Shown here: piece by piece, positions 4,637 through 37,918 of the stretch
Layout of the letters: each line of letters begins with the position of its first letter
Numbering within the stretch: position 1 is the first letter of the stretch
NCBI GenBank assembly: GCA_021731365.1
Contig: JAKFXL010000013.1
Span: 1-64,000, forward strand
Length of the DNA: 64,000 nt
Source of the DNA: Gammaproteobacteria bacterium
GTDB lineage: Bacteria > Pseudomonadota > Gammaproteobacteria > Tenderiales > Tenderiaceae
Reading direction: 5' to 3'
Program-made: the position numbers and the translations under genes
Notes under the pieces: generated by a model
Databases searched by the model: none
What the model saw: the letters and a program-made list of their open reading frames with translations, nothing else
What the model was told of the DNA's origin: nothing

Positions 4637-5575
4637 TCAGGTTGCATCTACTGTATAAAATTTGCAGCAGTTGCGCCCGGCTGATTTTGCCTGGTAGAGG
4701 GCACTGTCGGCGCGTGCAAACAGTTTTGCCTGAGTATCCCCTTTTTGAGTGCAGGTAATGCCGATGCTGACCGTGGCGGAGAGTTGAGTGCCGTCACATA
4801 CAACACACATATCTTCGATTTTTTGACGTAAACGGTTGGCAAGCAGGGTTGCCCCTTTGCGGCCGGTATTGCTGAGCAGGATGACAAACTCTTCGCCCCC
4901 AAAACGGAATACCATGTCAGAACCACGGATTGTTGAGGTGGCGGCCTCAGCAATTGCCTTGATGACACAGTCGCCTACTGAGTGGCCGTGTGTGTCGTTA
5001 ATCTTTTTGAAGTGGTCAATATCCACGGCCAGCATCGATAGCTCTGTGCCATGACGGTGTGCCAGTTGTATTTCACGCTCAATGGAGGCGTCCATGCTGG
5101 CGCGGTTGTTAATCCCTGTTAATGGGTCACGGTGGGCTGCTTCCAAAGCCATTTTGTAGAGCAGGGCGTTGCGAAGAGGATAGACCAGGCCACATAACAG
5201 CGTCTCCAGAAAGGCGGTTTCTGTGGGGGTGAATTTTTTGCGACGGCTGAGAATCAGTTCGCCCAGACTTTCACCTGCAACCACCAGGCGGTAGGTGCAG
5301 CTGTGAGGTGCCACGGTCCCATAGGCGATGGCGATGTCTAGCTCTTTATGGCTGTAGGAGATGTGGTGATAGTTGACCAGCACGCCAATCTCGTGGGCAA
5401 AGAGCTCAATTATCTTGGTTATATCCAGAGTGGTTTGCAGAATGCCTGAGAGGCGCAGCGCTTTTTCCAAGTCGCTTTGAGTTTCGCCCTCCTTTTGGCC
5501 GGGCATGGCAAGTGCCAGCGCACCAAGGCGATCATAACGTGGCTGTTCAAGCTCTTTCTGAGTGACTACATTCAT
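4637..5575 (-). CDS. GGDEF diguanylate cyclase with N-terminal sensory domain
   Basis: A 312-residue cytoplasmic protein predicted to make c-di-GMP from two GTP. Residues ~36-140 look like a GAF-type sensor; residues ~148-305 are a GGDEF domain starting at HRDPLTGINNR. The active loop is GGEEF at 226-230. An RxxD inhibitory site (RGSD, 217-220) lies exactly five residues before it, so product inhibition is expected. The start at 5575 is set by a strong AGGAGGAG ribosome site at 5582-5589; longer readings up to 5722 would run through a sigma-54-like promoter. It is divergent from an ATPase with MshEN c-di-GMP-binding-type modules and is followed by a BamE-like gene. Confidence 0.92.
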   Translation of the reverse strand: MNVVTQKELEQPRYDRLGALALAMPGQKEGETQSDLEKALRLSGILQTTLDITKIIELFAHEIGVLVNYHHISYSHKELDIAIAYGTVAPHSCTYRLVVAGESLGELILSRRKKFTPTETAFLETLLCGLVYPLRNALLYKMALEAAHRDPLTGINNRASMDASIEREIQLAHRHGTELSMLAVDIDHFKKINDTHGHSVGDCVIKAIAEAATSTIRGSDMVFRFGGEEFVILLSNTGRKGATLLANRLRQKIEDMCVVCDGTQLSATVSIGITCTQKGDTQAKLFARADSALYQAKSAGRNCCKFYTVDAT

Positions 5576-5953
5576 TGGCAACTCCTCCTGCTTGTCATCA
5601 GGTATGCCAGATGCGTGCCATTTTTCTTCTTGCATTGTTATACCTAATAAAAACAGACATATAGTCAGGGTGTTTGGGCGTTCGCTCTCTTTTCGCCAAC
5701 TATTTGACAGAGAATTCGGCACATTGTTGCCGCATCTGTCCCCATTTGTGTCGTAAGCGCAACTCTGTCAAGTGTATTAGAGCCTATCATAGGGTGTAAA
5801 TAACAATTGGGCTACGTGCAAAAAATGCAATCAATGGTAAAAAGTTCGTATTGGCAGAGGTATTGGTTTGCCGCCTGTCATTAAATGGCTAGAATGTGAA
5901 CCCTCAAACATTGATTGATGATTCCAACGGGTTACCCAAGGATTAGGGGATAG
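5576..5953. other. Divergent control region between cyclase and pilus ATPase genes
   Basis: No gene is supported in these 378 bases. The region holds the cyclase ribosome site, a sigma-54-like promoter (5605-5620, minus strand) and a perfect pair of 9-base inverted arms, TTGACAGAG at 5704-5712 and CTCTGTCAA at 5763-5771. Those arms lie about 85-165 bases upstream of the promoter, a usual place for enhancer sites. The ATPase side has an AGGGGA ribosome site just before 5954, but no clear promoter was seen. Confidence 0.5.
5605..5620 (-). promoter_or_regulatory. Candidate sigma-54 promoter for the GGDEF gene
   Basis: On the minus strand this reads TGGCACGCATCTGGCA. The -24 block TGGCACG is perfect, and the GG and GC pairs are separated by the required ten bases; only the -12 block departs (TGGC for TTGC). 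Transcription would start near 5593, leaving a short leader that contains the ribosome site and then the ATG at 5575. Confidence 0.55.
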
Positions 5954-7717
5954 ATGCGTACTTACACTCTTAAAAACGCCAAAGATTTACGTGCACTGTT
6001 GCAAGTGCACAAGCGCATGTCTGACATGCGCTTGGGCGAGGTACTGCTGGAAGAGCAGCTGATTAGTGCAGAGCAACTCAACAAGGCGTTGGAATTTCAG
6101 AAGGAGCTCCGTTCCGGACGCCGCCATATTGGACAGATTCTGGTCGAGTCAGGGTTGGTGACTCCCGATCAGCTGAATATCGCACTGGCCAAGAAACTGG
6201 CTATCCCCTACGTCAAGATTGAAAATTTTGATATCGATTCGACCCTGCTGACAGCCATTTCCCCTGAGATTGCCCTGCAACATAGGGTGCTGCCGTTGGC
6301 AGAGATCGACAATTCACTTGTGGTAGCCATGGTTAATCCGCTGGATCACGCGGTCCTTGAGGCGTTGCGTTTTAATTCCAAACGAAATATCGAGTCGGTG
6401 ATGGCTTCTCGGGAGGAGATTGATGCGGCGCTCTCCAAGCATTACAACGAGCATGAGGAGTTTGAGGCGCTGGATAATCTTGATCTGGATATTGATCTGG
6501 ATATTGACCCAGCACCGGAGTTGAATCAGAAAAATGAGGCTGTTCATGTTATTGAGCAGGAGGCGCAAAAGAAGCCGATTGTGCGTCTGGTGAATGCCAT
6601 TATTCTGCAAGCGGTGACCAGCGGTGCCTCGGATATCAATATCCGTCCGGAAAAGGACCGGGTTAATGTTTTTTATCGTGTTGATGGCAAGATGCAGTTT
6701 GTGCGCACCCTGCACCGTTCGTTGCTGCCAGCGTTGGTGAGTCGAATCAAAATCACGGGTCAGATGGATATCTCAGAACGCCGTCTGCCCCAGGGGGGAC
6801 ATGCACGCATGATGCGCCAGGGGCGTCAGGTCGATCTGCGTATCTCCATCATGCCAACGGTGAATGGCGAGAGTGTGGTGATTCGTGTATTGGATAAACA
6901 GGCGGGTTTTCGTCCGCTGAAGGATCTGGGCTTAAATAAACGTGACCTTGAGCTGACTAAGCGGTTGATTACCCGTCCCAATGGAATTTTTCTGGTCACC
7001 GGGCCTACCGGTTCAGGTAAATCAACAACGCTCTACGCGATTCTTGATGAGGTGAAGCGCCGTAACCAGCATATTCTTACGGTTGAAGATCCGGTGGAAT
7101 ATGACATGGAGGGGGTGGAGCAGGTGCAGGTTGCGCTGGCTAAAGGGTATACGTTTGCCAAGGCGTTGCGGCATTTTTTGCGTCACGATCCGGATGTCAT
7201 CATGGTGGGGGAGATTCGTGATGAGGAGACTGCCCAGATTGCCAATAAGGCGGCGCTGACCGGACATCTAGTCTTTAGTACGCTACATACAAATGATGCA
7301 CCATCAACGGTTACCCGCCTGCTGGATATGGGGATTGAGTCCTATCTGCTGAGTACAACGCTGCTGGGTGTGATGGCGCAGCGTCTAATTCGGGTGAATT
7401 GCAAGGAGTGTGTGGACGATGAGGTGCTGGAACCTCATGTATGTAGGGTGTTGAAGCTGAAAGAGGGTGAAAAATTCCGGCGGGGTGCAGGTTGTATTAA
7501 GTGCAACTACTCTGGCTATCAGGGGCGGGTGACTGTCTCTGAGTTGATGGTGGTGACGCCAGAGATCTCTGAACTTATTGCCGATGGAAAAGTGGCGCAA
7601 GAGATCAACAAACTGTCAATTGCACAGGGGATGCGTACGCTGCAAGATAACGCCTTGCAGCTGGCCCGTGACGGTGTGACCTCGATTGAAGAGGTTTATG
7701 CGCTCTGTACAGAGTAA
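5954..7717 (+). CDS. PilB/GspE-family assembly ATPase with MshEN modules
   Basis: A 587-residue hexameric motor ATPase of the type IV pilus/type II secretion class. The N-terminus has two MshEN-type half modules: RLGEVL at 26-31 with LNKALEFQ, and HIGQIL at 58-63 with LNIALAKKLAIPYV. MshEN domains bind c-di-GMP in MshE. The catalytic core has Walker A GPTGSGKST (~350-358), the Asp box and Walker B DPDVIMVGEIRD (~412), and a His box (STLHTNDA). A CxxC...CxxC zinc element follows (CKEC, CIKC). A DLDLDIDLDID acidic linker separates the halves. No pilin, platform or secretin gene is near, so its machine is unknown. The divergent neighbour is a diguanylate cyclase. Confidence 0.92.
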   Translation: MRTYTLKNAKDLRALLQVHKRMSDMRLGEVLLEEQLISAEQLNKALEFQKELRSGRRHIGQILVESGLVTPDQLNIALAKKLAIPYVKIENFDIDSTLLTAISPEIALQHRVLPLAEIDNSLVVAMVNPLDHAVLEALRFNSKRNIESVMASREEIDAALSKHYNEHEEFEALDNLDLDIDLDIDPAPELNQKNEAVHVIEQEAQKKPIVRLVNAIILQAVTSGASDINIRPEKDRVNVFYRVDGKMQFVRTLHRSLLPALVSRIKITGQMDISERRLPQGGHARMMRQGRQVDLRISIMPTVNGESVVIRVLDKQAGFRPLKDLGLNKRDLELTKRLITRPNGIFLVTGPTGSGKSTTLYAILDEVKRRNQHILTVEDPVEYDMEGVEQVQVALAKGYTFAKALRHFLRHDPDVIMVGEIRDEETAQIANKAALTGHLVFSTLHTNDAPSTVTRLLDMGIESYLLSTTLLGVMAQRLIRVNCKECVDDEVLEPHVCRVLKLKEGEKFRRGAGCIKCNYSGYQGRVTVSELMVVTPEISELIADGKVAQEINKLSIAQGMRTLQDNALQLARDGVTSIEEVYALCTE

Positions 7718-16822: not shown

Positions 16823-18607
16823 CTACTCATCATCACTCAGGGGGGAGACCCGCGCCACTTCAGCCAGTGAGGTGGTGCCGTTGGCCACTTTCTGAATGCC
16901 GTTGATCCGCAATGGCCGCATCCCCTCTTTTTGCGCCTGCAGGCGGATGGCAGCAACGTCGCCATCGCTGGTATGGACCAGTCGTTTGATCTTGCCTGAC
17001 ATCAGTAACATCTCGTAGATACCACTACGCCCTGCATAACCGGTGTTGCGGCACTCGGCGCAGCCGACTGGTCCCATCACTTGCTCAGGCATCGGCCCTT
17101 TCCAGGGGCGGCTCAGGTTATTCCAGAGCTCGGCATCGGTGGCGACAGGCTGTTTGCAGTGGGGGCAGAGGTTGCGCACCAGCCGTTGTGCGACAACACC
17201 TAGCAGAGAAGCGCTGATCATGTAACGTGGTACGCCGATGTCAAGCAGACGGGTGATGGCAGAGACGGCGTCGTTGGTATGCAGGGTGGAGATGACCAGG
17301 TGGCCGGTCTGGGCCGCCTGAATGGCCATTTCGGCGGTCTCCATGTCGCGGATTTCACCGACCATGATGATGTCCGGATCCTGCCGCAACAGCGCCCGTA
17401 CACCGCTGGCGAAGTCGAGATCGATGTTGTGCTGCACCTGCATCTGGTTAAATTCCGGCACCACCATCTCTATGGGATCCTCAATGGTGCAGAGGTTCAG
17501 CTCAGGTTTGGCCAGCTGTTTGAGGGTAGAGTAGAGGGTGGTGGTTTTGCCTGAACCGGTGGGGCCAGTGACAAGGATGATGCCGTTGGGCTGCTGGATC
17601 ATCTGTTGCCACTGGCCCTCTTCTGTTTTGTTAAAGCCGAGGGCGGCGAAGTTTTTCACCAGCACATCAGGGTTGAAGATACGTAGCACCATCTTTTCGC
17701 CAAAGGCGGTGGGCAGGGTGGAGAGGCGTAGCTCCACCTCGTCACCGCTGGGTGAGCGGGTCTTTAACCGGCCATCGAGGGGGCGACGTTTCTCCGCCAG
17801 ATCCATACGCCCCAAAATCTTCAGACGGCTGATGACGGCTGAGAGGATGGTGGCGGGCAGCTGGTAGACCAGATGTAACATGCCGTCGATACGGAAACGG
17901 ATGTTGCCCTTGTCGCGGCGTGGTTCGATGTGAATGTCGCTGGCGCGCTGTTCAAAGGCGTACTGCAGCAGCCAGTCGACGATGCTGACGACGTGTTGAT
18001 CGTTGGCATCGAGGCTGCCCTTTTTGCCCAGCTCCAGCAGCTGCTCAAGGTTGGAGATATCCCCCATCGCGCTGCCGCGCTGGTCTGCGGCCCCCAGCAC
18101 CGAGCGGGAGACGCTGTAAAACTCCACCAGATAACGGTTTATATCTGCCGGGTTGGTCACGACGACCCGGATATCTTTATTCAGTATGCGTGACAGCTCC
18201 GCCACCCACTGGGTGTCGTAAGGTTCGGCGGTGGCAATGACGACGTAGCTGGTGCTGCTCTCTACGGGCAGCAGTTTGTTGCGTTCAGCATAGGAGTGGG
18301 AGACAACGGTGGTCACGGCGGCGGCATCGATCTTTAATGGATCGACGCGGTAGTAGGGCATGCCGGCCTTTTGCGCCAGCCACTCGGTCAGGAACTCCTG
18401 ATTCAGTATTTTGTGTGGTGGCAGCGCCGATTTTAACCCCTGGTCGGCAATCAGTAGCAGGGGGTGGAGCTGGCCAACGTCGCGAAAGCGGGCCTTCAAT
18501 TTCAGGTTTTCATGTTGATCCTGATTAATCAATCCATCGGTGAGCAGCTGTTCGGCCAGTTCACCTAGCTCGACTTTACGGGCCTGAGGTCTGTTTATCT
18601 TATTCAC
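16823..18607 (-). CDS. GspE/PilB-family ATPase (second copy)
   Basis: A 594-residue motor ATPase. The N-terminal ~190 residues form a T2SSE-N-type domain (LLPVESSTSYVVIATAEPYD). The core has ASDIHIEPRRDKG, Walker A GPTGSGKTT, TIEDPIE, Walker B DPDIIMVGEIRD and STLHTND. A zinc element has CPHC and CAEC. It lacks the clear tandem LGEIL modules of the other two ATPases in the window; only one weak ELAEQLLTDGLINQ segment is seen. The start is GTG at 18607 with a weak ribosome site. No secretion or pilus genes are adjacent, so it is an orphan here. Confidence 0.9.
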   Translation of the reverse strand: MNKINRPQARKVELGELAEQLLTDGLINQDQHENLKLKARFRDVGQLHPLLLIADQGLKSALPPHKILNQEFLTEWLAQKAGMPYYRVDPLKIDAAAVTTVVSHSYAERNKLLPVESSTSYVVIATAEPYDTQWVAELSRILNKDIRVVVTNPADINRYLVEFYSVSRSVLGAADQRGSAMGDISNLEQLLELGKKGSLDANDQHVVSIVDWLLQYAFEQRASDIHIEPRRDKGNIRFRIDGMLHLVYQLPATILSAVISRLKILGRMDLAEKRRPLDGRLKTRSPSGDEVELRLSTLPTAFGEKMVLRIFNPDVLVKNFAALGFNKTEEGQWQQMIQQPNGIILVTGPTGSGKTTTLYSTLKQLAKPELNLCTIEDPIEMVVPEFNQMQVQHNIDLDFASGVRALLRQDPDIIMVGEIRDMETAEMAIQAAQTGHLVISTLHTNDAVSAITRLLDIGVPRYMISASLLGVVAQRLVRNLCPHCKQPVATDAELWNNLSRPWKGPMPEQVMGPVGCAECRNTGYAGRSGIYEMLLMSGKIKRLVHTSDGDVAAIRLQAQKEGMRPLRINGIQKVANGTTSLAEVARVSPLSDDE

Positions 18608-32741: not shown

Positions 32742-33797
32742 CTATTCGCCACCCCCTCCCCCCGGCCTTACCCACTGCTGGCTATACCAGTAAAACCGTC
32801 CCTTCTCACCTGACGGTGCGGTGCAGTTGTAACGGCTGCGGCCGACGGGTAGATCCTGTTGTGGTTGGACTTTTACTTCGAAGTCGTTAAGCCAGTCGAG
32901 TTTCATGGGTTGGTTGTTGAAGTAGCAGCTGAACTGGCGCAGGCGCGGGTGCTGTTTATCAAAGGTGAAGGTGAGTGATGGCCGCTTGTTGGTGGTGGCC
33001 GATTCGGCACCGGGGTCGCGGGCCAGCGGCATGGCGAGGCTCATCACTTTGCTGCCGAAGTCGGCGATGGAGCCGTAGTGTTCGTTGACGGGGAAGCGTG
33101 GCAGGTAGCGGAAGTCGGAGGTCGGTCCCATGGCACCAGACTGCTGGCCGATGCCGGTGAGTCCTTCGGCGGCGACGATGTTGGCCAGCGCCAGGTTGTA
33201 TTCGCCGTAGGGGTAGACAAACAGTTTCTCGACCTGGGGCAGCTCCTGCTCTAACCGTTTTTGCGCGTGGCGGATGTCGGCAACCATGCGTTGTTGCCAC
33301 TGCGCCTCATCTTCCCCCTTGAGCCGTCGCGGCATGTAGTCATGACGGCTGGAGTGGTTGCCAAAGCTGGCACCATGTTTCTCCATCTCGCGCATCTGCT
33401 CCCAGCTCATGAAGTTGGGCAGTTTTTTATCGATGTAGTCGGTGGTGACAAAGACGGTGAAGGGCCAACGGAGTTTTTTCAGCCGTGGGTAGGCCTGGGT
33501 GTAGACGCTGAGGTAGGCGTCATCCATGGTAAGGGCTATGGTTTTGTCGGGCAGTGGTTTGCCGTGGCGCAGCTGTTCAATAATCTTTGCCAGTGGCCAG
33601 ACCTGGAAGTTGTTCTGTTGCAGGAACTGGAGCTGTGCCTCGAACTGATCAATACGGATGTTGGTAGTGGGGTAGCTGTTTTCGCCAATGCGGTGATACA
33701 TCACGGCGACGGCGGAGTTTTGTGCGGCGTGGCTGCTGTTGATCTGGCTGAGGAGCATGCTGGCCAGCAGGATGGTAGGGGCATAACGGTTGAACAT
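32742..33797 (-). CDS. Secreted polysaccharide deacetylase (NodB domain)
   Basis: A 351-residue protein with a signal peptide ending near SSHA (~24). The NodB deacetylase domain carries the metal and catalytic residues: IALTMDDAY with Asp 92 and 93, and HSSRH with His 148 and 152. It removes acetyl groups from N-acetylglucosamine polymers; the order resembles PgaB/IcaB-type enzymes that mature biofilm polysaccharide. A C-terminal region (~255-345) of beta strands is separate. The longer reading from 33842 would run through a hairpin repeat, so MFNRYAP at 33797 is preferred, though without a clear ribosome site. Confidence 0.87.
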   Translation of the reverse strand: MFNRYAPTILLASMLLSQINSSHAAQNSAVAVMYHRIGENSYPTTNIRIDQFEAQLQFLQQNNFQVWPLAKIIEQLRHGKPLPDKTIALTMDDAYLSVYTQAYPRLKKLRWPFTVFVTTDYIDKKLPNFMSWEQMREMEKHGASFGNHSSRHDYMPRRLKGEDEAQWQQRMVADIRHAQKRLEQELPQVEKLFVYPYGEYNLALANIVAAEGLTGIGQQSGAMGPTSDFRYLPRFPVNEHYGSIADFGSKVMSLAMPLARDPGAESATTNKRPSLTFTFDKQHPRLRQFSCYFNNQPMKLDWLNDFEVKVQPQQDLPVGRSRYNCTAPSGEKGRFYWYSQQWVRPGGGGGE

Positions 33798-33820
33798 GGT
33801 GGTTTTTAAACTGGCAGAAG

Positions 33821-33854
33821 GGGTGTTGGACGATGATAACATCGCCCAACACCC
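33821..33854. repeat. Intergenic hairpin, REP-like
   Basis: GGGTGTTGGACGATG and CATCGCCCAACACCC form a 15-base stem with one mismatch and an ATAA loop. It lies between co-directional pilB-like and deacetylase genes and extends to CCCTAC, matching the GTAGGGTGTTGG family of scattered gammaproteobacterial repeats. There is no T-run on either strand. Confidence 0.6.
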
Positions 33855-33859
33855 TACGG

Positions 33860-36307
33860 CTATTTGATGCAGACGGTCCGTATCTGGGTCAGGTCGGTGT
33901 AGCCTTGCAGAATTTTTTCGATGCCATCCTGCTTCAGGGTACGCATGCCGTCATTGAGGGCCGCTTTCTGGATTTTGTAGGCCGGGGCGTGTTCGAGAAT
34001 CATCTGTTTGATGTGCGGGGTGGCGATCAGGAGTTCGTGCAGGCCGATGCGGCCATGGTAACCGGTATCGTTACACTCTTTGCAGCCGGGTGCTTTATAG
34101 AGGGTGAGCTTGCCGTTTTTGCCAAACCGCCGTACCCACTGTTCCAACTGTTGATCGATAACGGCTTTTGTCTCTTCGGCAGTGGCGTTGTCGGGGATGA
34201 GTCCAGCGCAATACTCGTGGGCTAGCTGATGAATCTCACGGACGTTGGAGTGGTAGGGGCGCTTGCAGCTGGGGCAGAGTGTTTTGGCCAGCCGCTGGGC
34301 GAGTATGCCAACCAGGGCGTCGGCAAAATTGAACGGGTCCATGCCCATGTCGAGCAGTCGTGTGACACTTTCGGCGGCGCTGTTGGTATGCAGTGTTGAA
34401 AGTACCAGATGACCGGTGAGCGAGGCCTCAATGCCGACACCGGCGGTTTCGGCATCACGCATTTCGCCCACCATGATGATGTCGGGATCGGCGCGCAGAA
34501 AGGCCCGCATGGCAGTGGCAAAGTCGAGACCGATCTTGGGGTTGACCTGTACCTGCCGCAGTCCGCTCTGGGTGATCTCGATGGGATCTTCAGCCGTCCA
34601 TATTTTGCGATCAGCATTGTTCAAGTGACCCAACACGGAGTGCAGGGTGGTGGTTTTGCCTGAGCCAGTGGGGCCACAGACAAGAAACAGGCCATAGGGC
34701 TGGGCGATGGCAGCGAGCAGTTTTTCAGCGTTGTTACTGCTCAGACCGAGGGCGTTGATGGGGATGTTTTTGCCGCTGCTGAGTATCCGCATCACCACAT
34801 CTTCCAGTCCGCCTGCGGTGGGCAGGATGGCAATACGCAGCTCAATGTTGGCCGGGCCATACTGTTTGAAGTTGATTTTGCCATCCTGTGGCTTGCGCCG
34901 CTCGGAGATGTCGAGCCGTGACATGACTTTGATACGTGAGATTAAGGCGTTGCGGTATTGGGGCGGGAACTGGTGGTAGACCGCCATGGTGCCATCTTTG
35001 CGGAAACGTACAACCACCTTTTTGTTGCCAGGGTTGGGTTCGATATGGATGTCGGAGACCCCTTGCTGGTAGGCGTCCATGATGATTTTGTTGATGATTT
35101 TAACGACGATGTTGTCGGTGACTTCGCTCTCTTCGTGGCTGGTAAAACCATCACTCTCAAACTTGCCGCTGTTGAATGAGCTGTCATCCGGCTCATCCCC
35201 TTCTGGTTCAATGGCGTTCAGTATATCTTCTGATGAGTAGTAGAACTGTAAGGCCCAGTTGATATCTTCGGTGATGCCGATGACAGGCTCTATATATTTG
35301 TTGGTGTGAAAGCGCAGTGCATCCAAGGCCTCCCAATCCATGGGGTTTTCGATGGCCACCGCCAGCTTGCCCTCATATTGATAGAGCGGGATCACCTTGT
35401 GTTTGAAGGCTAGGTTGGCCGGTATTTTGTGAATGATGTCTGGGCTGACTTTGAACTCCTGCAAATTAACAAAGGGGATGCCGAGCTTTTTGGCCAGCGC
35501 CTGCTGAATCTGTTCGCGGCTGACAATGCCGTTGTCGATCAATATTTCGCCCAGCGGTTTGCGGCGCTCTTTTTTTTGTATCATCAGGGCATCTTCAAGC
35601 TGTAGCTCATCGATCAGATTTTCGCTGATCAAAATTTCGCCGAGTTTGAGACTGGGCATCGCCTTCTGCTGTTTTAATGCCTTTTCCAGCTGGCTGGTGT
35701 CGACAATGGTGTGGCTGATCAGGTACTCCCCCAGGGGTTTAGTGCGGGCGTTGTGCTGGATCTCCAGCGCATTGGCAATCTCTTCACGAACCACCCCTTG
35801 GTTCTTGATTAAAATCTCGCCAATGGGTTCGCCAATGATGTTGCTATGAATGGCGCTTTTGGGGATAAACAGATGCAGGTATTGAGGCAGGTACTGGTTG
35901 GTATTGTGCTGTTTAAACAGATGAATGCCTTGCTGATCGACCCGGCTGCCGTAGGTTTTACCACTCAACTTACTATTGTCTTTGAAGGTGATGGTGAACT
36001 CTTGTGGCTCGGTGGATGAGGTGATCGATTTTTTATTGCCCCCGCTGATGGCAGGGTCGGGTGTGAAGGGGATAGGTTGTGTGAGCTGCATGGTTTTGAT
36101 GTCGACCATGTTTACCTCATGCAGTTCGCCACCCTCTTTATGGTTCAGGCCGATGATGGCGTTGCCGGTATCAAACCGGGTAAGTTTGCCCTCTATCTTT
36201 TTACCGTTCACTAAAAACAGAACAATGGCCGCATTATTAAAGGTGGCCACGTTTTCTGGGTTTGAGAGTGGCGGGAGCGGCAGGATAATTTTATCATTCA
36301 GGTCCAT
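33860..36307 (-). CDS. PilB-family ATPase with duplicated N-terminal domain and four MshEN-type modules
   Basis: A protein of about 815 residues, much longer than normal PilB. It begins with two similar beta-rich domains (~25-78, FLVNGKKIEGKLTRFDTGNA; ~103-155, ITFKDNSKLSGKTYGSR). Then come four modules at exact 30-residue spacing, beginning at 161, 191, 221 and 251 (PIGEIL, PLGEYL, KLGEIL, PLGEIL), each ending in a xxALxxQ-type helix. The motor core has Walker A GPTGSGKTT (~545), DPDIIMVGEMRD and STLHTNS. A CPSC...CKEC zinc element is split by a ~65-residue insertion. AAGGA seven bases before the ATG at 36307 sets the start. No pilus genes are adjacent. Confidence 0.92.
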   Translation of the reverse strand: MDLNDKIILPLPPLSNPENVATFNNAAIVLFLVNGKKIEGKLTRFDTGNAIIGLNHKEGGELHEVNMVDIKTMQLTQPIPFTPDPAISGGNKKSITSSTEPQEFTITFKDNSKLSGKTYGSRVDQQGIHLFKQHNTNQYLPQYLHLFIPKSAIHSNIIGEPIGEILIKNQGVVREEIANALEIQHNARTKPLGEYLISHTIVDTSQLEKALKQQKAMPSLKLGEILISENLIDELQLEDALMIQKKERRKPLGEILIDNGIVSREQIQQALAKKLGIPFVNLQEFKVSPDIIHKIPANLAFKHKVIPLYQYEGKLAVAIENPMDWEALDALRFHTNKYIEPVIGITEDINWALQFYYSSEDILNAIEPEGDEPDDSSFNSGKFESDGFTSHEESEVTDNIVVKIINKIIMDAYQQGVSDIHIEPNPGNKKVVVRFRKDGTMAVYHQFPPQYRNALISRIKVMSRLDISERRKPQDGKINFKQYGPANIELRIAILPTAGGLEDVVMRILSSGKNIPINALGLSSNNAEKLLAAIAQPYGLFLVCGPTGSGKTTTLHSVLGHLNNADRKIWTAEDPIEITQSGLRQVQVNPKIGLDFATAMRAFLRADPDIIMVGEMRDAETAGVGIEASLTGHLVLSTLHTNSAAESVTRLLDMGMDPFNFADALVGILAQRLAKTLCPSCKRPYHSNVREIHQLAHEYCAGLIPDNATAEETKAVIDQQLEQWVRRFGKNGKLTLYKAPGCKECNDTGYHGRIGLHELLIATPHIKQMILEHAPAYKIQKAALNDGMRTLKQDGIEKILQGYTDLTQIRTVCIK

Positions 36308-36487
36308 TATCATTCCTTGTCTATCATGGCATTGCAGATCACGGGGAATGGAGTGATGACGACTATTGAACTGTTGTCACTGTGTAAACGCACCGGGTTG
36401 TTTGATGCATGGACGCTCCCCTGTTGAGGTGGATATCGGCCAGAGGCAAGGGGATGTTAGTAGAGGTTTGTGTCGCAGGTAACGAGT

Positions 36488-37456
36488 TTACTGCCCACTG
36501 ATGGTAAACGGATCGGCGTAAATCTCCTGGAAACCGGCACCGGCGAGAAAGCAGTCCCGTTTGGTATTGTTCACCATCTCCGGATGGCCGCAGAGGTAGA
36601 CACTCCAGCCATTCAGCTTGGGAAACTGTTTCAGGGCGACCTCATTGGCGCGGCCTGCTGTGAATCCCTGACTATCGTTGCCGGAGAGGCAGGGGGTGTA
36701 GTGAAAATTGCTGTGTTGTCTGGTCAGTGCATTGAGTTCGTCCACCAGGTAGAGCCGTTCTGCTGAGCGGCTGCCGTGGAAAAGATGGATCTCCCCCTGG
36801 TGCCCCTGTTCCAGCGCGGCACGGGCAATACCCCAGAGCGGTGCCAGACCGGAGCCGGTACCTATCAGCAACATATTTTGTTGTGGTTTCTCGCCCAGAT
36901 AAAAACAGTCACCATGGGCACCATCAATGTTGAATTGGTCACCAGGATTGATCTGGTCGTGGAGCCATTGGCTCATCTGGCCATTGGGGAGGAGCTCTAC
37001 ATGTAACTCCACCACCCCTTCGCTGGGCAGACTGGCAATGGAGTAGCTGCGGATCAAACCGTCGGGACGGTGCAGATTGATAAACTGGCCCGCTTGAAAC
37101 TCAAAGGGCGACGCGGGTTGTAAGCGCAGGCGTAGGGTTTGGGGATTTAATTGGGTTTTACTGATCACGGTGACTAAAACCTTAGGCAGGGCCTCATTGC
37201 CCGCCAGGGCAACCTGCATATCGGTTGTTGTTCTGCAAATACAGGCCAGGAAAAAACCGCGATGTTGCAGTGTTGGTTTTAACCCTTTTTGTGAATCTGG
37301 AGGGGGAGTACCCTCAACTGCACGCATCATACAGGTCTGGCAGCTACCACTGCGACAGGAGGAGGGTGGCTCCGCACCCTGACGTATCAGCGCCTCTAAA
37401 ACAGTTTCATCAGCATGACAGCTGTACGCTGTTCCAGAGAAGGTGATTGTTGCCAT
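36488..37456 (-). CDS. 2Fe-2S ferredoxin / flavin reductase
   Basis: A 322-residue electron-transfer protein. Residues ~1-85 form a plant-type 2Fe-2S ferredoxin with cysteines in SSCRSGSCQTC and LACIC. Residues ~95-315 form an FNR-type reductase: FAD motif RSYSIAS, NAD(P) motif IGTGSGLAPLWGIARAAL, and the C-terminal YLCGHPEMV. It should pass electrons from NAD(P)H through FAD to the iron-sulphur centre and then to a partner. It starts 18 bases after the truncated hemoglobin stop, so the hemoglobin is the natural partner. The arrangement resembles reductase components of oxygenases. Confidence 0.92.
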   Translation of the reverse strand: MATITFSGTAYSCHADETVLEALIRQGAEPPSSCRSGSCQTCMMRAVEGTPPPDSQKGLKPTLQHRGFFLACICRTTTDMQVALAGNEALPKVLVTVISKTQLNPQTLRLRLQPASPFEFQAGQFINLHRPDGLIRSYSIASLPSEGVVELHVELLPNGQMSQWLHDQINPGDQFNIDGAHGDCFYLGEKPQQNMLLIGTGSGLAPLWGIARAALEQGHQGEIHLFHGSRSAERLYLVDELNALTRQHSNFHYTPCLSGNDSQGFTAGRANEVALKQFPKLNGWSVYLCGHPEMVNNTKRDCFLAGAGFQEIYADPFTISGQ

Positions 37457-37474: not shown

Positions 37475-37843
37475 TTAACGTCCGAGCACGTCTTTGCGGG
37501 TGCTTTCGGCAATGGCTGCAGCTTGCCCGATTAGTTCGGCAGGCACACCCAGCTCAGTCAAGGTGGCACCAAGGTGTTCCATAACGGCGTCGAAATGGCT
37601 GTCATTTAAGCCGTTAACAACAAGATGTGCGTGGGCGGCACGCATATCTTTACCGGTGTAGCTGTGTGGACCGCCCAGGGCCATGGTCAGGAACGCTTTC
37701 TGTTTGGCATGTTGGCGCACCATGTCTGTGCTGGTGAAAAACTGGTTGATACGGGTATCAGCCAGAACTTTGCGGTAAAACAGGTCAACGGCGGCATCAA
37801 CAGCGGCTTCGCCACCAATTTTTTCATATAGACTTTGGGTCAT
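37475..37843 (-). CDS. Truncated hemoglobin, group I
   Basis: A 122-residue 2-on-2 globin. The opening SLYEKIGGEAAVDAAVDLFYRKVL includes the Phe-Tyr pair at the start of helix B10, followed by MALGGPHSYTGKDMRAAHAHL with the GG turn and the proximal His in helix F. Group I members such as Mycobacterium HbN convert nitric oxide to nitrate with bound oxygen. AGGAG seven bases before the ATG at 37843 sets the start. It heads an operon with a ferredoxin/flavin reductase that could re-reduce the haem. An NsrR-like operator lies upstream, which fits a nitric oxide role. Confidence 0.93.
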   Translation of the reverse strand: MTQSLYEKIGGEAAVDAAVDLFYRKVLADTRINQFFTSTDMVRQHAKQKAFLTMALGGPHSYTGKDMRAAHAHLVVNGLNDSHFDAVMEHLGATLTELGVPAELIGQAAAIAESTRKDVLGR

Positions 37844-37918
37844 TTGCATTCTCCTGAAAAAGTGTTGTTATCTATCACGAGCCATTGGGGATTTCGTGTG
37901 GTCTGTGCTGCTTGATAA

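Follow-up and report, generated by a model that had tools for sequence, protein, structure and literature searches.

The window analysed here is a stretch of 64,000 nucleotides from a genome of the family Tenderiaceae (Gammaproteobacteria), and the gene of interest is on its minus strand at 33860..36313. The open reading frame encodes a GspE/PilB-type ATPase of 817 amino acids from the first ATG. Residues are numbered below from the MDLN start at the ATG of 36307 (815 amino acids), not from the first ATG at 36313. The T2SSE ATPase domain (PF00437; residues 397-809, 33881..35119) scored 402.8 bits, compared with a gathering cut-off of 24.9. The Walker A motif GPTGSGKT is at residue 545, and DIIMVGEMRD, which contains the Asp and Walker B boxes, is at residue 609; by reading, the His box GHLVLSTLHT is also present. 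Together with the tetracysteine zinc element (residues 678-745, 34073..34276), the domain score and both nucleotide boxes bear out the assignment as a PilB-like ATPase made in an earlier note on this DNA. With fair confidence, we regard the protein as an orphan, that is, accessory, ATPase of a type IV pilus or type II machine, which has an MshEN domain and an enlarged front end and would tune filament extension in response to cyclic dimeric guanosine monophosphate (c-di-GMP). The front end contains an array of four MshEN-type modules. This array is a known kind of sensor unit that has been doubled; the doubling is common to many related proteins, and the ligand residues are partly kept.

The N-terminal region is encoded on the same strand. 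Small β domain 1 (five strands; residues 21-82, 36062..36247) and small β domain 2 (residues 99-160, 35828..36013) were delimited by the strands of the AlphaFold2 model. They are followed by module 1 (residues 161-190, 35738..35827; PIGEIL...EIQ), module 2 (residues 191-220, 35648..35737; PLGEYL...KQQ), module 3 (residues 221-250, 35558..35647; KLGEIL...MIQ), and module 4 (residues 251-274, 35486..35557; PLGEIL...AKK, with Pro251 and Lys274). Modules 3 and 4 are the first and second halves of the canonical MshEN unit, which is matched by the NCBIfam model c-di-GMP_motif, and the MshEN C-terminal subdomain comes next (residues 275-361, 35225..35485; Pfam MshEN, 69.8 bits). The module starts at residues 161, 191, 221, and 251 are exactly 30 residues apart, as had been noted: a hidden Markov model (HMM) of the module, trained on relatives in the same family as the window protein, gave four matches with gaps of 30, 30, and 30, and scored 23.1 bits for module 1 and 30.3 bits for module 2. 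The start xLGEIL, described as common to all four, is found in modules 3 and 4 (KLGEIL, PLGEIL), whereas modules 1 and 2 start with PIGEIL and PLGEYL. Of 2000 shuffled versions of the first 365 residues, only 9 contained a motif of this kind at all, and modules 1-2 align in phase with modules 3-4 at 40% identity (hhalign E-value 1e-16). These two results rule out a chance recurrence of the spacing. In the reading preferred here, modules 1-2 repeat the helical hairpins of modules 3-4 as the outcome of a tandem duplication.

Relatives were obtained by a scan of named genomes. Almost all of the 80 loci found carry the label Gammaproteobacteria, Betaproteobacteria, or that of a subgroup of these. 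They include Candidatus Tenderia, Pseudohongiella, Gallionella, and Methylotenera, and one is labelled Opitutaceae. The alignments of 70 sequences used below consist of 69 of these loci and the window protein: L070 and L081 were dropped because of stops or frame, and nine as partial matches. One further analysis omitted another seven. The 30-residue spacing is retained in most of the aligned relatives. Mean pairwise identity is highest in modules 3 and 4 (0.55 and 0.52), intermediate in module 2 (0.45), and lowest in module 1 (0.34). Among 144 genomes, its own included, ten others in the same family match nearly all of residues 1-358; six further genomes of the same class match most of this region, two of them (L029 and L030) without module 1.

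The AlphaFold2 model of residues 1-365, built with 70 sequences, had a mean predicted local distance difference test score (pLDDT) of 76 and a predicted template modelling score (pTM) of 0.44. Residues 217-357 of the model superimposed on MshE in complex with c-di-GMP (5htl_A) with a Z-score of 16.6 and a root-mean-square deviation (RMSD) of 3.3 for 140 aligned residues. Modules 3 and 4 and the next ~85 residues are predicted to form a complete MshEN domain. The prediction thus agrees, for modules 3 and 4, with the expectation that the modules fold as MshEN pairs. Module 1 had a pLDDT of only 40-49 in the model of residues 1-365. Modules 1 and 2 modelled alone gave four helices (pLDDT 88.7, pTM 0.54), whose best match in the PDB, the N-terminus of PilB, was weak (E-value 1.6, query-normalized TM-score (TMq) 0.38, RMSD 11). 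No MshEN-like bundle was recovered for these two modules alone, the VIA comparison being limited to the 11 chains listed by Foldseek.

The two β domains are homologous to each other, as the suggestion of a duplicated N-terminal domain implied: hhalign aligned them with an E-value of 6.8e-6 (probability 85), compared with 0.17 and 0.07 for two controls. In the prediction, β domain 1 (~residues 5-79) resembles Sm/LSm proteins, with VIA Z-scores of 6.0-6.9 to Hfq/LSm chains; Z-scores of 6.6-6.8 were also obtained to part of a cytochrome. Z-scores of 6-7 are common for small barrels, and the Sm/LSm likeness is therefore not diagnostic. In the β domains of the window protein, LSM (PF01423) scored 14.3-17.7 bits, below its gathering cut-off of 23.4, and DUF6982 (PF22478) scored 13.9-14.8 bits, below its cut-off of 24.5; DUF6982 matches 12 of the 70 aligned sequences at E ≤ 0.01. 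A Foldseek search with the model of residues 1-365 listed the tandem Tudor domains of 53BP1 (E-values from 3e-4, RMSD 11-13, TMq 0.12-0.14). This match is read as no more than two consecutive SH3-like barrels.

The ATPase core and the zinc element are standard except that the zinc loop is longer. Sixty residues separate the CxxC pairs (CxxC...CxxC from residue 678), as against 27, 29, 31, 31, and 32 residues in the same loop of five paralogues from its own genome, in agreement with the long insertion that had been pointed out. In the 80 related loci (best frame each), the loop is of 48-61 residues in 66 and of 27 residues in 3; it was not found in 11, some of which are cut. In a further set of frames with the P-loop GSGK (L125-L188), the loop is of 30-32 residues in 21 of the 23 in which it was found, and it was not found in 33.

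In the genome, T2SSE exceeds its cut-off in ten matches, including two partial frames; three of the ten are in the window. No gene for the platform protein T2SSF was found on the contig of the window (C7): the eight matches, corresponding to four frames, are all on C1, C4, C9, and C56, and each of these platform genes adjoins another T2SSE ATPase match. Since there is no platform gene near the three ATPases of the window, the protein is regarded as an orphan.

According to Wang et al. (2016), the MshEN unit that binds c-di-GMP consists of two motifs of 24 residues each, joined by a linker of 5 residues (PMC5013675), which agrees with the statement of the earlier note that MshEN domains use two such halves to bind the ligand. 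The standard unit has two modules; therefore, four modules are two units' worth. In the known complexes, each half-site is made up of Arg (or Lys/Leu), Leu, Gly, two more Leu, and Gln (PMC5013675, PMC11731258), and an extended motif, (R/K/L)LG...Q, has been published (PMC11731258). The model c-di-GMP_motif (NF053729; cut-off 38) scored 82.3 bits for the whole protein, with the best stretch at residues 221-273. When taken by register, modules 3-4 scored 62.7 bits, modules 2-3 51.2 bits, and modules 1-2 40.9 bits; in a peptide of modules 1-2, the best stretch covers only positions 1-26 of the 53 of the model. At E ≤ 0.01, the model matches the N-terminal region of every one of the 70 aligned sequences, that of the window protein among them. 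The half-site of module 3 is intact: K221, L222, G223, L237, L241, and Q244 are all present. K/R221 is found in 67 of the 70 sequences, L237 in 66, L241 in 70, and Q244 in 69.

Computation shows which domains are present, how the modules are spaced and conserved, that modules 3 and 4 are predicted to take the MshEN fold, and that the contig has no platform gene; the ligand, the partner, and the output are inferred, as follows. The ATPase would be, by family, a hexamer, whose N1 domain would be a normal MshEN fold formed by modules 3 and 4 and the C-terminal subdomain. In relatives, this domain binds c-di-GMP and is thought to contact the inner-membrane stator. The extra hairpin pair and the doubled Sm/SH3-like β domain would most likely enlarge the docking or sensing surface. 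Most probably, binding of c-di-GMP, and of whatever the front end binds, would change the N1 domain, so as to let the ATPase engage a platform protein encoded elsewhere, and this engagement would tune filament extension. In the GSPII-B domain of Thermus PilF, Lys and Leu are at the Arg positions and the dissociation constant is 6 nM; single Gln-to-Glu changes in the same domain leave binding at 460-950 nM (PMC11731258). Loss of Arg as a proof of non-binding is thus ruled out, and c-di-GMP binding by the window protein is therefore kept as possible. Judging from these residues, the chances that at least one site binds c-di-GMP seem to be evenly balanced.

Several observations weigh against this reading. 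The scores for the PilB, GspE, and TfpB equivalogs are all below the cut-offs (TIGR02538, 553.8 bits versus 675.65; TIGR02533, 475.9 bits versus 630.25; NF053534, 425.4 bits versus 850). The half-site of module 4 is altered: P251 is in place of Arg, I267 of Leu, and K274 of Gln. Modules 1 and 2 of the window protein open with Pro (P161 and P191). The gene is flanked by genes for a reductase and a polysaccharide deacetylase and has no GGDEF neighbour. The assembly, moreover, is a draft in 83 contigs. In favour of the reading, a GGDEF gene is the direct same-strand neighbour in 4 of the 80 related loci (upstream in L095, L106, and L116; downstream in L113); this is a raw count, uncorrected for a background rate, from loci many of which have cut flanks.

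The altered residues could mean that the MshEN part is a degenerate docking domain that does not bind the nucleotide, like PilF GSPII-A or XpsE, and that the extra modules and the β domains bind proteins. This explanation seems possible but is given distinctly less weight than that of a c-di-GMP-tuned ATPase. Pro or Ala occupies position 251 in 61 of the 70 sequences, and Lys occupies position 274 in all 70; being nearly fixed, these residues indicate that the second half-site is consistently altered. The invariance of Lys274 is partly forced, because the search used KLGIPF as one of its two patterns; Lys274 is also invariant in 15 sequences gathered without that pattern. PilF GSPII-A had to be truncated and given both Gln as well as Arg at this position before binding became measurable again (PMC12002112), and the non-binder XpsE has substitutions at both of these positions and at several more (PMC5013675). 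However, the half-site of module 3 is intact in nearly all of the alignment, PilF GSPII-B binds with Lys and Leu for Arg and retains binding upon a single change of Gln to Glu, and the relaxed motif of Wang et al. permits P at the first position and K at the last (PMC5013675). The GGDEF neighbours in the four related loci also argue against a purely docking role.

The earlier note had proposed that the four modules bind two ligands or grade the signal, in other words, that there are two canonical c-di-GMP sites, one formed by modules 1 and 2 and the other by modules 3 and 4. In addition to the in-phase alignment of the two pairs, this proposal is favoured by Gln in both modules 1 and 2 in 60 of the 70 sequences, and by Thermus PilF, which binds two c-di-GMP molecules via two of its three GSPII domains (PMC11731258). 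Some four- and six-module ATPases of Pseudomonadota retain R/K and Gln in every module, for example the four-module L148, L164, and L167; the window protein differs from them in this respect. Covariation points in the same direction: position pairs with z > 3, out of 625, numbered 11 for modules 1-2, 7 for 3-4, 6 for 2-4, 5 for 1-3, and 3 each for 2-3 and 1-4. This sample, of 87 arrays with an effective number of sequences of 45, is noisy, and covariation was dropped as an arbiter of the module pairing. On the other side, Gln at the end of module 4 is found in none of the 70 sequences, the complete set of R/K/L and Gln is present in the register 1-2 in only 5, modules 1 and 2 modelled alone matched no MshEN bundle, and module 1 is poorly defined in the longer model (pLDDT 40-49). 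The PilF paper, moreover, argues against extensive cooperativity (PMC11731258). Because Pro and Lys are at the Arg and Gln positions of module 4 and modules 1 and 2 start with Pro, two sites are unlikely, and the binding of two c-di-GMP molecules is, on the residues, improbable to the same degree; neither the residues nor the models lend support to the proposal of two ligands or a graded signal.

There is a loose end: going by the conserved ligand positions, modules 2 and 3 make the best pair, whereas the predicted fold pairs module 3 with module 4. Both Gln are kept in the register 2-3 in 62 of the 70 sequences, and the full set is kept in 31, compared with 5 in the register 1-2 and none in 3-4. 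In the window protein, a count of 12 ligand positions gives 11 for the register 2-3 and 10 and 10 for the other two. The c-di-GMP site might be shifted by one module, so that modules 2 and 3 share it; the shift might be permanent or result from an exchange of the partner of module 3. By reading of the alignment, helix 2 of module 2 is still present in seven relatives that have lost module 1 (L088, L092, L093, L111, L114, L115, and L120), and a helix of this kind also precedes the module pair of the window paralogue at 5954. However, AlphaFold2 pairs module 3 with module 4, the c-di-GMP motif model scores higher for the register 3-4 than for 2-3, the covariation for 2-3 is below that for 1-2 and 3-4, and module 2 starts with a basic residue in only 21 of the 70 sequences and with Pro in the window protein. 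The shifted site is considered to be quite unlikely. In its exchange form, which seems more unlikely still, module 3 would pair with module 4 without ligand and with module 2 upon binding of c-di-GMP, and this would open MshEN and release or engage the ATPase. In that case, the extra modules would serve as a partner-swap switch rather than as a second sensor.

Four or more consecutive modules are widespread. Of 299 Pseudomonadota genomes, 75 had a match to a profile of the four-module array at 1e-12, which in some cases was incomplete. Among 64 rows taken from these matches, which include the window gene and three second copies of others, a run of four module hits was found in 22 and a run of six in 11; more runs of four exist, in rows where three hits were obtained and four can be read. 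The rows were picked by a four-module profile and are therefore silent on the frequency of long runs among all MshEN proteins. The six-module proteins are L136-L142, L152, L155, L187, and L188, most of which have a P-loop; the run is interrupted in the middle by a wider gap of 35 in L137, L138, and L188. Only two of the 33 rows that have four- or six-module runs show no P-loop GSGK, namely L151 and L155, whose frames are truncated. L136, the six-module protein that was checked, has T2SSE. Thus, any rarity that the earlier note may imply is refuted: such arrays are frequent in related Pseudomonadota proteins, mostly ATPases of the same kind. A rule that runs are even-numbered is not claimed, as the automatic extension entered neighbouring domains, the odd counts look artefactual, and the seven relatives mentioned above keep part of module 2. 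No description of uninterrupted four- or six-module runs was found among the open-licence literature matches listed; the supplement of Wang et al. gives a (MshEN_N)2 form, so such runs may well be in print. Two further proteins were observed in this search. L147 (a frame of 687 amino acids) is a glycosyltransferase with six MshEN-type modules and an MshEN domain; long runs are therefore not confined to ATPases. L146 (957 amino acids) has two separate module runs, one of four and one of at least three, the first of which is followed by what reads like an MshEN C-terminal subdomain.

These arrays can be compared with the systems already described. MshE of Vibrio cholerae (PDB 5HTL) likewise has two 24-residue modules and a C-terminal subdomain before the T2SSE ATPase, with the modules at residues 9 and 38, 29 apart, whereas the window protein has four modules 30 apart (PMC5013675). 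The window protein also differs from MshE in the doubled β domain ahead of the modules, and in having Pro for the second Arg and Lys for the second Gln. PilF of Thermus thermophilus is likewise one pilus ATPase with several MshEN units, three GSPII domains (PMC11731258, PMC12002112), and Lys in place of the first Arg, as in the window protein, is compatible there with tight binding (PMC11731258). PilF, however, repeats the whole domain including the C-terminal subdomain, whereas the extra modules of the window protein have no C-terminal subdomain of their own. Other Pseudomonadota ATPases, such as L148, L164, L136, and L141, have similar uninterrupted runs, with modules mostly 28-31 residues apart and the P-loop GSGK. 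The precedent for an accessory extension ATPase is TfpB of Acinetobacter baylyi, which is likewise a second, separately encoded extension ATPase (PMC11656802). The likeness is in the functional idea only, the window protein being far under the TfpB cut-off. The MshEN hairpin thus emerges as a tandem unit that can be counted: it occurs two, four, or six times in a row, mostly before pilus-type ATPases, and so goes past the pair known from the textbook domain. This raises the question of whether more hairpins provide more c-di-GMP sites or more docking surface. The fixed Lys and the Pro/Ala of module 4, together with the relatives near GGDEF genes, are suited to testing it.

The genes around the ATPase are also on the minus strand. 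The polysaccharide deacetylase gene (32742..33842; Polysacc_deac_1, 88.8 bits) is 17 bp (base pairs) downstream of the ATPase gene, and that of a 2Fe-2S/FAD/NAD reductase (36488..37456) is 174 bp upstream; a bacterial-like globin gene (37475..37849) is a further 18 bp upstream of the reductase. Homologues of these neighbours were found in few of the 80 related loci (reductase in 8, globin in 6, deacetylase in 4), and the neighbours in other lineages are different. Homologues of the globin and the reductase occur together in six related loci, and a link of oxygen or nitric oxide to the ATPase is conceivable. Promoter-like sites were fewer than in shuffles (2 versus a mean of 3.7) and terminator-like sites more numerous (14 versus 6.8); nothing is claimed from either.

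In the loci with a GGDEF neighbour, the gap to the ATPase frame is 13 bp in L095, 157 bp in L116, and 107 bp in L113, and the frames overlap in L106. The other domains of these neighbours are dCache-PAS-GAF in L095, MHYT-PAS and EAL in L106, and a receiver and EAL in L116. The neighbour in L113 has dCache and the motif GGEEI; L113 itself is more distantly related, and its match starts no earlier than residue 102. The genome of the window protein has 26 GGDEF matches. The second orphan GspE/PilB-type ATPase of the window, at 5954-7717 on the plus strand (MshEN, 84.3 bits), is divergent from a GGDEF gene at 4637-5722 on the minus strand, 231 bp away. Its two modules are preceded by an additional helix at the N-terminus, and the second of them ends in the same Lys. 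The third orphan ATPase, at 16823-18607 on the minus strand, has a TfpB-like N-terminus, which scored 61.3 bits over the first 100 residues.

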